Below, in pieces: positions 3,440 to 34,266 of a stretch of 36,793 nt of DNA; position 1 is the stretch's first letter; every line of letters starts with the position of its first letter. This stretch comes from Bacteroidales bacterium (GTDB taxonomy: Bacteria > Bacteroidota > Bacteroidia > Bacteroidales > VadinHA17), in NCBI GenBank assembly GCA_030692905.1, contig JAUYBT010000168.1, positions 1 through 36,793 on the forward strand, written 5' to 3'. The notes beneath the pieces are model-generated. The model was given only the letters and a program-made list of their open reading frames with translations, did no database searches and was not told where the DNA came from. Made by a program: the position numbers and the translations under genes.

Positions 3440-3468
3440 GGCTGTACCGGAAAATACAGCCTTTTTTA
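3440..3468. terminator. Rho-independent terminator between the convergent ferredoxin and gldB-like genes
   Basis: ggctgta-N8-tacagcc followed by tttttta. Confidence 0.75.
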
Positions 3469-27574: not shown

Positions 27575-28939
27575 ATGAGAAAAATACGAAAAATTTACGA
27601 GACTACCCAAGAATTTAGCTTTATCTCACCTGAAAAAGAGTTTTCACTCTACTTTAAAGCGTTCCAACAGTCAGAACTTGGTGGAATTTATCAGGCAATA
27701 CCCTGGAATGAACTTGTTAAGAGTTTAAAAATCAGGAAGAACAGAAAAGGACCTGATCCGACATTTAGTCCACAGGGGATGCTTGCCCTGATGTTTTTAA
27801 AGTCATATGTGGGTTGTTCAGACAAGAAACTAATCATCCACCTTAACGGGAATATTCAGTTTCAAATGTTTTGCGGTATTTTCCTTGGTCCTGAGCATAT
27901 TAGCAATTACAAGATAGTCAGTGACATACGCTGTGAACTTTCCAAGAAAATTGACATCAAGGCACTTCAGGGTGTTTTGGCAGGTTCCTGGAAGCCTTAT
28001 CTGAAAGAACCCAATATCATGCTGGAAGACGCAACCTGTTATGAGACTTCCATGCGTTATCCAACCAACGTAAAACTTTTGTGGGAAAGCACAGAATGGT
28101 CATACAAACAGCTGAAGCTTATATGTAAATACCTAAAAATTAGAATGCCTCGAAATAAGTACGAAGAACAATGGAACAAGTATAACAACTATAGCCATAA
28201 GCGGAAGAAGACACATAAGGAAACAGCCAAACGTACCAGGAGCCTGCTCTATTTATTGGAAAAGATACTTGTTTTGCTCAAGGAAATAGAAAGTCAGTAT
28301 CAGCATCAGCTTGATTTGCCTAATAGATATTACACCAATATTAAAATCATTCGCAAAGTTCTAAAGCAACAGCAAGAGATTTTTCAAACAGGCAAGAGTG
28401 TACCCGATCGAATAGTAAGCATATCGAAATCATACATTAGGCCTATTGTTCGGGGCAAAGAAGTAAAAGCAGTTGAGTTCGGAGCCAAAGTGAATATGAT
28501 CCAGTTTGATGGGATCAACTTTATCGAGCATATAAGTTTTAATGCTTTTAATGAGGGGACAAGGCTTGTAAAGTCAATACGTTATGGGAGGAGCTTGTTT
28601 GGCAAGATCACCCATATATCGGCCGATGATATATATGCTACCAATGCAAACCGCAAATACAGTACCTCTGCACACATCGTGACCAATTTCAAGCGTAAAG
28701 GAAGGGCTGGAAAACATGAAGAACACAGGCGGATCATCAGCAGAGAGTTAAGGAAAGAGAGGACAATACGAATGGAAGGCAGTTTTGGAACAGAGAAGGA
28801 ACACTATGGACTTCAGAAGATTAAAGCCAGGACAGAGAAGAATGAAATCCTCTGGATCTTCTTCGGGGTACATACAGCAAATGCTGTTAGGATAGCAAAA
28901 CGTTTAGCTGTCTCAAGGGTCGAACGCATGGCATCTTAG
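27575..28939 (+). mobile_element. IS element transposase (DDE; IS5/IS1182-like, DUF772 plus DDE_Tnp_1 type), intact ORF
   Basis: N-terminal PTFSPQGMLALMFLKSYVGCSDKKLIIHLNGNIQFQMFCGI. Candidate catalytic acidic positions in LEDATCYETSMRYP, HISADDIYATNANRKY and RMEGSFGTEKEHYGLQKIKARTEKNE. IS ends were not resolved. Confidence 0.85.
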
Positions 28940-31213: not shown

Positions 31214-32182
31214 ATGAGAACCATTGCAATAGCAGCAGGGGGCGATTCCTCTGAATTTGAGGTTTCTGTGAAGAGCGCCAATGAAGTTAGTAAAGTACTA
31301 TCATCCAGATATATAATTTATATTATTTTGATTCGTGGAACAAACTGGTACTGGGAAGATCAGAAGGGACGTTATCATAATATTGACAAGAATGATTTCA
31401 GTCTTGTTACCGACGAATACAGGATAAGGTTTGATGCAGTATTCATTGCAATACACGGTACTCCGGGTGAGAATGGCTTACTACAGGGATATTTCGATAT
31501 GATGGGTATTCCTTACACAAGTTGCGGTGCATTTTGTTCCACCCTTACATTTAATAAACAGGCATGCAAACTCTTTCTGAAAGAGTATAAGATACCGATG
31601 ACCGATGCCATTCTGATAAGAAGAAGTGATAAGACAGACATAAAAAACATTATTAAACAGATTGGGCTTCCCTGTTTTGTCAAACCGAACAACAGCGGTT
31701 CAAGTTTTGGTGTAACCAAAGTGAAGAAAAAGGAGAAGCTACTATCTGCTATTGAAACCGCCTTTAAGGAGAGCAATGAGGTGATGATAGAAGCATTTAT
31801 GGATGGAAGAGAGGTAGCATGCGGGGTTGTCAAAACCAGGAACAAAGCCATAGTTCTTCCTGTAACTGAGATTATAAGCAAAAATGAGTTTTTCGATTAC
31901 GAAGCAAAATATACTCCCGGAAAATCAGATGAGGTCACCCCTGCCGATATGCCTGCGGTTGTTACTGACGAGATTCAGAGATTAAGCTCCCTTGTTTACG
32001 ATCTTCTTGGTTGTAAGGGAATTGTAAGGGTTGATTTTATTGTAATCGGCCAGCAACCATATTTTCTTGAGATTAATACAGTTCCCGGGATGACAGAAGA
32101 AAGTCTGGTTCCGAAACAGGCAGCGGCAGCCGGAATTGCACTCGAAGATATATATTCGATGGTTGTTGAGGATCTGTTCTGA
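31214..32182 (+). CDS. ddl: D-alanine--D-alanine ligase
   Basis: IAIHGTPGENGLLQGYFDMMGIPYTSCG, CFVKPNNSGSSFGVTKVK, VDFIVIGQQPYFLEINTVPGMTEESLVPKQA. Confidence 0.96.
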   Translation: MRTIAIAAGGDSSEFEVSVKSANEVSKVLSSRYIIYIILIRGTNWYWEDQKGRYHNIDKNDFSLVTDEYRIRFDAVFIAIHGTPGENGLLQGYFDMMGIPYTSCGAFCSTLTFNKQACKLFLKEYKIPMTDAILIRRSDKTDIKNIIKQIGLPCFVKPNNSGSSFGVTKVKKKEKLLSAIETAFKESNEVMIEAFMDGREVACGVVKTRNKAIVLPVTEIISKNEFFDYEAKYTPGKSDEVTPADMPAVVTDEIQRLSSLVYDLLGCKGIVRVDFIVIGQQPYFLEINTVPGMTEESLVPKQAAAAGIALEDIYSMVVEDLF

Positions 32183-32251: not shown

Positions 32252-32339
32252 TTGACCACAAAAAATCCTCTCCCTGGAGGGGTAAGGGGTGGGTTTCTTA
32301 TTCCAAAATTTGTTACTAATCTAATTGATTAAAACGAGA

Positions 32340-32372
32340 CCTGCCGCGAATTAAAACCGGCAGGTTTTTTAT
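32340..32372 (+). terminator. Rho-independent terminator downstream of ddl
   Basis: cctgccg-cgaattaaaac-cggcagg followed by tttttt. Confidence 0.8.
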
Positions 32373-32394
32373 TTTCCCTGGAGGCCAGGATTAC

Positions 32395-32450
32395 AAGCTC
32401 TTTTGCAATTTTTGCTAGTTTGTAGGCTTTTGCGAATTGCAAATGTGCTT
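32395..32450. repeat. Imperfect inverted repeat (16-nt arms, 14/16 paired, 24-nt loop)
   Basis: aagctcttttgcaatt (32395-32410) versus aattgcaaatgtgctt (32435-32450). Confidence 0.8.
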
Positions 32451-32488
32451 ACACCAGTCCGTTGGAATAGGTGCTGTTGCGTAGTTTT

Positions 32489-33784
32489 TTATTTTTTAGT
32501 CAGTTTGTAGTTGCCTGTGTTTTCATTTTTTGTCACTGAATAACCGTCTTTAAGTTCCAATGTCCAACCGTCTCCGCTTATATTTTTATTCTCATTCTTT
32601 ATAGGAATGGTTACTGAAATTTTGTCCCAATTAGAACTCATTAATGCTCCGTTCTCAACTGTAAGTATTCCCCAGTTGTCAGTAACTCTAATATTCGGAT
32701 AAACTGTTCCCTTGTCTTCGATAGGCATAATATTTCTTGGGTCAAATGATACATTCATCTGCTCAAATTGGATTACAAGATGAGGTTGGTCAATAAATTT
32801 ACTTTTGTATTCAGCAATCAGTTTTTTTGTTTTTTCTTCTCTTGTTTTTTCTTCTGAAATAATTACCTCTCCGTTGTATTGATTTAAAATTAAGTCAGTC
32901 GTTTTCTTTAAATCATTCGGTAGTGATATGTCAAATGCCTTTATAAAATAGTCAGTCAGGTTTGTTTTAATTGTTATTTCTCTGTTCCAACCTTTTTTTG
33001 TATTGACAAGTAAGTAACCGTAGATAGGAATTGTTTGATAAGCAAATGAACGAACAAATGTAGGGTTGCTCAAAAAAGAATTTATGCTTTGCACAAAGTG
33101 TTCGGTAGATTGTTTTTTATTTCTCCTGCTAATTACCGAACCTGTGTATTCAGCAATTCCTTCATTTAGTTCTAATAAGTTTTCGGTAGTGTCTGCTCCA
33201 GGATAAAGCGAATATCTATATTTCCTAAAAGTCAGGGCATTAGTTAGATGCGTTTTCCGTTCAATTTCATTGGTTGTTTGTATAGTCTTTTTTAATGCTT
33301 CTAATTCTAAACGCAAATAAATTCTTCCATCCTTTTGGTCAAGGTGATTATTTTCAGTATTGAATAGTTTGAAACCTAATGACGGTTGACTTACGTGAAA
33401 TAACTCGTGGGCAAGTAAATTTAATCTGTCCTGTTTATTGACTGGTAATGGAAGCATAATCATAGCCCAACGTCTGCCGTTCCAATTGATCGCTGTGTTT
33501 GCAATGTTAATTTCGTTTGGTAAAATTCCAGAAAAAATTTCACCAACTTGCTTGAGAATACCAGCCGTGTCGGAAAAGTTTGCAAATAGTTGTCTTGTAT
33601 TAGGATTGACTAAAAGTATTGGTCCATATAAATCTGTCGCCCACATTTGTTGATGTTTGTTTGCCTCAACTTTAATTTCATTGAAATAGGTTGCAATACT
33701 GTCCTGAAAGGTTGAAATTTTCTGTCCAAACGATGATTGAATGAACATAAAAATCAATGTCGTGATGTAAAATCTTTTTATCAT
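32489..33784 (-). CDS. Secreted gluzincin-like zinc metallopeptidase of unknown family
   Basis: Signal peptide (MIKRFYITTLIFMFIQSSFGQ), LLAHELFHVSQPSLGF (HExxH), then LLELNEGIAEYTGSVISRRN (EGxAEY). Confidence 0.7.
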   Translation of the reverse strand: MIKRFYITTLIFMFIQSSFGQKISTFQDSIATYFNEIKVEANKHQQMWATDLYGPILLVNPNTRQLFANFSDTAGILKQVGEIFSGILPNEINIANTAINWNGRRWAMIMLPLPVNKQDRLNLLAHELFHVSQPSLGFKLFNTENNHLDQKDGRIYLRLELEALKKTIQTTNEIERKTHLTNALTFRKYRYSLYPGADTTENLLELNEGIAEYTGSVISRRNKKQSTEHFVQSINSFLSNPTFVRSFAYQTIPIYGYLLVNTKKGWNREITIKTNLTDYFIKAFDISLPNDLKKTTDLILNQYNGEVIISEEKTREEKTKKLIAEYKSKFIDQPHLVIQFEQMNVSFDPRNIMPIEDKGTVYPNIRVTDNWGILTVENGALMSSNWDKISVTIPIKNENKNISGDGWTLELKDGYSVTKNENTGNYKLTKK

Positions 33785-33849
33785 ATCGTTGTCTTTTTAA
33801 AATTACGCAACGTATATGCAAGGCGTAGTAAATAACTACTCATATAGAT

Positions 33850-34266
33850 CTATTTCTCCCTATGAAATAACATATTCAGAGCCCTGTCGAACAGTGTAAG
33901 TATCAGAATCCCAATAAAAACATATATCAGCAACCCAGGGAGATTAAAATTAAAGATTGATGTAAGATTAATCTCGGGCAAAGAAACCTTAATATTTTTA
34001 ATAAGTTCTACCACCGGAAGTGCTGATAAATCAGTTTCACTTCCGGGAATGAGAAAAGCCGCAACTATCAATAAAATTGTAATAGCGGCAGAAATTACAG
34101 GGACAAGGTTTTTATTCCGTAACCTGCCGGCAGCCTTCAAAAGTGCGGCCTCGAGTTGAATGCGCATCATTACTTTTGAAGTAAATCCTTCAGGGGCTTT
34201 TTCAATCCTTTCAGGATTAATATACTGCTTTAGAAGATCTTCCTTATATTTTTCCTGTTTATTCAT
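33850..34266 (-). CDS. Small membrane protein following the ECF sigma factor, candidate anti-sigma partner
   Basis: Soluble N-terminus (INPERIEKAPEGFTSKVMMRIQ) and two TM segments, directly downstream of the sigma gene. Confidence 0.6.
   Translation of the reverse strand: MNKQEKYKEDLLKQYINPERIEKAPEGFTSKVMMRIQLEAALLKAAGRLRNKNLVPVISAAITILLIVAAFLIPGSETDLSALPVVELIKNIKVSLPEINLTSIFNFNLPGLLIYVFIGILILTLFDRALNMLFHREK

Follow-up and report, generated by a model that had tools for sequence, protein, structure and literature searches.

An Isolated Candidate Gene Cassette and an Integron-like Array System with a XerA-type Recombinase in Bacteroidota

The window, the 36,793-nucleotide stretch of a Bacteroidales contig analysed here as a whole, contains a gene that is probably a single, isolated and, as it appears, partly decayed cassette from a Bacteroidota mobility system that resembles integrons. 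Among bacterial devices for collecting single genes, integrons are the principal one known, and they are reported to be rare in Bacteroidota. We lean towards the view that Bacteroidota have a gene-capture system of their own, apart from IntI integrons, which employs a XerA-type recombinase with HARP-like modules (HARP-Int), and that the window gene is a stray cassette of it. This system is apparently undescribed and phylum-wide. A search of the open-access literature returned no description of HARP-Int arrays.

The Window Gene and Its Boundaries

The features of the locus are as follows.

31214..32182, plus strand: ddl (D-Ala-D-Ala ligase), left neighbour; homology with relatives ends at the ddl 3' end
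32337..32373, plus strand: terminator-like stem GACCTGCCG..CGGCAGGTTTTTTATT, past ddl and external to the cassette, read from sequence
32393..32454, minus strand: SH, an imperfect hairpin of 62 nt, GTGTAAGC-ACATTTGCAATTCGCA...CAAAAATTGCAAAAGAGCTT, recognised by a covariance model and by recurrence in other genomes
32476..32488, minus strand: candidate arm at the cassette end, AAAACTACGCAAC, which includes TACGCAAC at 32476-32483 and is complementary to the start arm
32489..33784, minus strand: cargo gene for a 431-aa putative secreted zinc metallopeptidase, a single ORF with HELFH and NEGIAEY motifs
33799..33811, minus strand: candidate arm at the cassette start, GTTGCGTAATTTT, which includes GTTGCGTA at 33804-33811; from the pair search and the array-like arm pattern
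33812..33847, minus strand: foldable upstream flank with a weak fold, ending ...CATATAC immediately before GTTGCGTA, from sequence reading
33850..34266, minus strand: putative anti-sigma/membrane protein, right neighbour, 94% identical in nucleotides to genome G466, the match stopping at 33850

The HELFH and NEGIAEY motifs are situated at residues 126 and 207 of the product, for which Pfam and NCBIfam contain no family. The initial annotation described the unit as a single ORF of low GC bounded by an exact 8-bp inverted pair, and both points hold: the GC content is 33.1%, the minimum among the window ORFs (mean of the others, 40.2%), and the pair is present at 32476-32483 and 33804-33811. There are exactly two copies of GTTGCGTA in the window, on the plus strand at the first position and on the minus strand at the second, where 0.34 are expected; this number was reached in 3 of 100 shuffles. 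When the gene flanks were shuffled, an exact 8-bp inverted pair of any kind, lying at most 60 nt from the start and stop, had a probability of P=0.048, and a pair of the GTTR type P=0.0014. Of the 29 window ORFs, no other has a GTTR-type pair. Judged by the two shuffle probabilities, the pair is by itself suggestive and nothing further.

The extended arms, GTTGCGTA-A-TTTT and AAAA-C-TACGCAAC, are complementary at 12 of 13 bases, with the single mismatch after the eighth base. They consist of a core, a bulge of one to three bases and a short second stem, a pattern common to true array cassettes, and the window gene has the complementary GTTRnnnnn...nnnnnYAAC arms around one gene by which HARP-Int cassettes are recognised. 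A complete attC-like hairpin after the YAAC is absent at the window: SH alone follows TACGCAAC, at a distance of ~20 nt, and TACGCAAC has no GTTR-terminated partner. On the other side, the flank upstream of the gene terminates in GTT without a YAAC partner. The tacgc/gcgta dyad noted there by the initial annotation is present at 33804-33827, although TATATG..GTAGT..ACTAC..CATATA at 33812-33847 forms a better structure locally, itself weakly stable. This flank may be left over from the 3' side of the target site of the cassette, and the homology with G466 stops at its outer edge (33850).

Recurrence of the flanking motifs around unrelated ORFs, a check suggested by the initial annotation, was seen for the GTTR...YAAC arms and for SH, but not for TACGCAACGTATATGCAAG, which is unrepeated in its own genome. 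Likewise, ACGTATATGCAAG shows no enrichment in the phylum. The exact window flank motif has one copy in its own genome and none in viral contigs, and across the phylum its matches are intragenic and at chance level.

A MITE, a REP element of the IS200/RAYT type or a pdif (XerC/XerD) module, all of them mobile elements of other kinds, would likewise have short inverted ends and palindromes, and a DDE transposase gene (DUF772 / DDE_Tnp_1_2) lies at 27575-28939, 3.5 kb away from the candidate cassette. Such an origin is nevertheless hardly credible, as the ends of the units described below are specific to each cassette and complementary within it, rather than common between copies; the unit contains no transposase, and a reading of the boundary against the dif consensus finds no 28-bp dif-like ends.

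Cassette Arrays in the Genus

Arrays of single genes separated by attC-like hairpins of the form TAAC-ACGGACAATAAAGG...CCTTTATTGCCGGGCC-GTTA were found in G406:C5:700-8610 and in G398:C15. The G406 array extends over ~8 kb of unrelated genes, each of which begins with GTTAnnnnn and finishes with nnnnnTAAC; its cargo includes HepT/MNT and HigBA toxin-antitoxin pairs, an outer-membrane beta-barrel protein, methyltransferase-like and YdeI-like proteins, and others. The tandem single-gene cassettes beside an integrase that define an integron are seen in related genomes, and the window has one gene. The arrays also contain YAAC...GTTR hairpins in which the positions after GTTR deviate from RRY (for example, GTTGCGT and GTTAGCC). 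The earlier suggestion of a geometry resembling that of integrons, but lacking their GTTRRRY core, is supported. The accompanying idea of a cassette system other than classical integrons is largely borne out by the HARP-Int arrays of the genus, and is qualified at the window by the missing attC-like site.

Complementary cassette ends follow from the presence of GTTRnnnn at one end and of nnnnYAAC plus a hairpin at the other, and are seen in the window as GTTGCGTA/TACGCAAC. Among 17 cassettes, 5.06 of 6 variable arm positions match, against 2.92 of 6 (sd 0.31, maximum 4.06 over 5000 shuffles) when the ends are shuffled between cassettes. The test is not circular, because the sites were chosen by the hairpin and the AAC/GTT core and the arms were not used. 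The stem halves vary jointly as well, as in GGTATGG/CCATACC and CAATAAAGG/CCTTTATTG.

The attC-like sites were counted in 62 genomes of the genus by the 5' arm AACACGGAYRRTA, with the reversed pattern as control. The arm outnumbers the control by 88 to 1 in G396, 30 to 0 in G398 and 22 to 2 in G460. Many of the arms in G396 and G398 (up to 88 per genome) lie on short contigs; the arrays appear to break assemblies, so that these counts are lower bounds. Genomes with HARP-Int contain 267 sites versus 51 for the control, whereas those without it show no excess (37 versus 39; p=0.001).

The homologue search in relatives provided a direct connection between the window gene and an array. A homologue with 44% identity is an unambiguous cassette in the array of G406:C5, flanked by GTTAGCGTT/AACGCTAAC arms, with a long imperfect hairpin after it. 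Nearer homologues, with 53-54% identity and a GC content of 39-40%, have no recognisable cassette flanks, and the gene family is therefore not restricted to cassettes.

One cassette of G406 (L045) contains TAAACATAAC three times (1925-1937, 2761-2773 and 3452-3463), each time behind a gene or a spacer, a pattern suggestive of cassette fusion with loss of the intervening hairpin.

The HARP-Int Recombinase

HARP-Int, found via partial matches to the integron integrase model TIGR02249, is a tyrosine recombinase of 500-540 aa that heads the arrays; in every linked case inspected the array is situated downstream of it on the same strand. The core-binding and catalytic domains are XerA-like (best folds 5hxy, 4a8e and 2a3v) and the catalytic residues RKHRHY are invariant. 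The N-terminus is predicted to comprise two tandem beta-beta-alpha-beta-beta-alpha modules, and a shorter form of ~390 aa has one N-terminal module. In a Foldseek comparison, the top match of the N-terminal module was the HARP domain of SMARCAL1 (4o66), a weak one (probability 0.63, E 0.29), and the XPB structure 2fwr was at rank 7. The Pfam HARP family (PF07443) gave no match above the gathering score; its matches, with E-values of 0.01-0.1 (best 0.013), reach 12-15 bits versus the 25-bit cut-off, and with these sub-threshold scores the designation HARP-like is put forward as a hypothesis. The predicted topology of the tandem modules is similar to that of SMARCAL1 HARP and of XPB 2fwr. In contrast to SMARCAL1, HARP-Int has no helicase and its modules are fused to a recombinase, with sequence similarity below threshold.

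The gene is present in 38 of the 62 genomes of the genus, and in 35 of 396 genomes sampled across the phylum, belonging to 22 of 172 genera. The initial annotation had recommended a search for a tyrosine recombinase, which the genus thus answers. The genome of the window has HARP-Int too, as a contig-end fragment: the N-terminus (KNVIVERAIHDGESRVALRFPYDTELISVVKGFPGARWSNKMKCWHIPDSSDAITLL) is located at G000:C42:9-173 and the remainder is cut by the contig end.

A classical-integron cassette, that is, a CALIN with IntI elsewhere or missed, is a very improbable reading. It has in its favour the YAAC...GTTR core, hairpin sites, single genes and toxin-antitoxin cargo, together with the nearest structures to the catalytic domain, which are those of XerA and IntI. 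Against it, TIGR02249 found no integron integrase above its cut-off in any of the 62 genomes of the genus. The partial matches of HARP-Int span ~2-180 and 240-315 of the profile and leave out ~181-240, which contains the IntI-specific insert, a part described as essential to integron function (PMC8138268). Moreover, GTTRRRY is not kept, and the array lies downstream of the integrase gene on its own strand. The HARP-Int arrays are integron-like, as far as anatomy shows, without being IntI integrons, since the defining IntI integrase was searched for and not found.

The SH Hairpin

The initial annotation pointed out an imperfect hairpin at 32395-32450, which a covariance match of 75 bits and its recurrence in other genomes substantiate; the window copy was itself part of the training set of the model. 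Compensatory changes are found at 11 of 15 pairs, with a covariation score of 0.473 versus 0.163 after shuffling, and these values are biased towards structure by the fitting of the alignment to the model. Rfam gave no match for SH. The element is present in 34 of 62 genomes of the genus and in 68 of 396 Bacteroidota genomes (48 of 172 genera). It shares its strand with the upstream ORF in 30 of the 35 cases where one was found, often no more than 20 nt past the stop, and the genes beside it are of many kinds, among them those for TonB-dependent receptors, restriction enzymes, a DNA methylase and a peroxidase. Some SH pairs bracket a unit of 1-8 kb, for example a Fur-like regulator and a peroxidase between 4575 and 7411 of L101.

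In the arrays, a YAAC core is frequently found 50-160 nt beyond SH. Most cassettes have SH before the YAAC, whereas at the window SH comes after TACGCAAC, on the unusual outer side. The foldable structure past the stop had been compared with an integron-type site; it is a conserved hairpin, but of a second type distinct from the attC-like sites. The candidacy of the window hairpin as an attC site was dropped, SH lying 50-160 nt ahead of the YAAC and having conserved loops of its own. SH may be an RNA end structure or a second recombination site.

In 10 of the 11 cases in which SH and HARP-Int lie within 30 kb of each other, SH is downstream of HARP-Int and shares its strand, an arrangement with a chance of ~8e-6 if side and strand are assumed to be random. 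It is this linkage that connects the sequence of the window itself with the cassette system. The gene might alternatively be an ordinary horizontally acquired or lineage-specific one, the 8-bp pair being coincidental and SH being a common Bacteroidota terminator or stabiliser that is frequent in arrays by chance. The location of SH close behind ORF stops agrees with that account, as do the P of ~0.05 for any exact 8-bp inverted pair, the lack of a complete attC at the window and a flank motif that is unique within the genome. We consider it unlikely in view of the P=0.0014 for a GTTR-type pair, arms that are bipartite as in true cassettes, the same-strand linkage of SH downstream of HARP-Int and the homologous gene that is a cassette.

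The Locus in Its Genome

Homology with G466 around the window gene is limited by 32178 and 33850. A comparison with sister strains for an empty site between ddl and the sigma-factor genes, proposed by the initial annotation, proved inapplicable because ddl adjoins an oxidoreductase gene in relatives and the anti-sigma-like gene adjoins clpS; no empty site of a simple kind between these genes exists in the relatives compared. The different placement of both neighbours indicates that the locus is a rearrangement breakpoint or an assembly misjoin, and misassembly at the ddl/anti-sigma junction is possible, as the breakpoint falls within a fragmented assembly of 258 contigs. Most likely, the window locus would represent a stray insertion or a remnant left after rearrangement between sites. 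The genome has six SH copies in all, one of which (G000:C77) is followed by an attC-like site whose terminal GTT is apparently mutated.

Comparison with Known Systems and Proposed Mechanism

Classical integrons, with IntI and attC, and the Vibrio superintegrons with VCR resemble the HARP-Int arrays in several respects. Both consist of single genes, promoter-poor in integrons and putatively so here, separated by imperfect YAAC/GTTR hairpins, with complementary cassette ends and an array headed by an integrase; both carry toxin-antitoxin genes and cargo of no assigned function, and some of each are plasmid-borne. They differ in the recombinase, HARP-Int being XerA-like, lacking the IntI insert and possessing one or two HARP-like N-terminal modules, and in the core consensus, which is GTTRNNNN in place of the integron GTTRRRY. 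Unlike in classical integrons, the integrase and the array of HARP-Int systems are on the same strand. The sites in the genus are often 110-400 nt long, in contrast to classical attC, and, to the extent of the sampling, the system is confined to one phylum.

The IntegronFinder 2.0 survey reported a single complete integron from Bacteroidetes proper, that of Salinibacter ruber (PMC9024848). Some of the compact HARP-Int sites might register as attC in that program. CALINs are clusters of attC sites lacking an integrase, whereas HARP-Int arrays possess a recombinase, albeit a non-IntI one. The XerA/Xer enzymes (5hxy, 4a8e) and the simple tyrosine recombinases of PMC8138268 share the core-binding and catalytic domains and RKHRHY with HARP-Int, which adds the HARP-like N-terminus and goes with cassette arrays.

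In the proposed mechanism, HARP-Int would bind one folded strand of the attC-like hairpin made by the YAAC...GTTR arms and would cleave at the GTT core. Circular cassettes would then be excised from, and inserted into, the arrays downstream of the HARP-Int gene, and the HARP-like modules may recognise the folded cassette sites. This raises the question of whether a HARP-like module can substitute for the IntI insert in the recognition of folded recombination sites. If the proposal is true, integron-like capture has at least two recombinase solutions, and toxin-antitoxin, restriction and enzyme genes would form a mobile pool on which Bacteroidota of many habitats could draw. A widespread system would also explain gene flow in Bacteroidota that current integron searches would overlook.

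Arrays in Other Families and on Plasmids

GTTR-started arrays are also present in genomes of other families (G274, G313 and G186). In G186, the ~75 kb after HARP-Int contain 75 plus-strand and 9 minus-strand ORFs, the arms are complementary at up to 17 of 19 bases, and a GTTR start immediately follows HARP-Int with no YAAC ahead of it. A mobilizable plasmid of Pontibacter kalidii and a Chryseobacterium plasmid show the same organisation, in which HARP-Int precedes small genes on its own strand that are accompanied by attC-like sites; the Pontibacter sites are compact (~55-60 nt) and the exact arms on the two plasmids are 8-10 bp long. Across these loci, 7 of 17 cassette starts have a partner downstream that matches at 6 of 6 positions, versus 9 of 550 in the background.

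The Chryseobacterium plasmid (NZ_CP041688.1; L390, 16278-20060) additionally contains an IS110 element and a group II intron within the cassette array. In classical integrons, IS elements and group IIC introns target attC sites, and the insertions in L390 are reminiscent of these.
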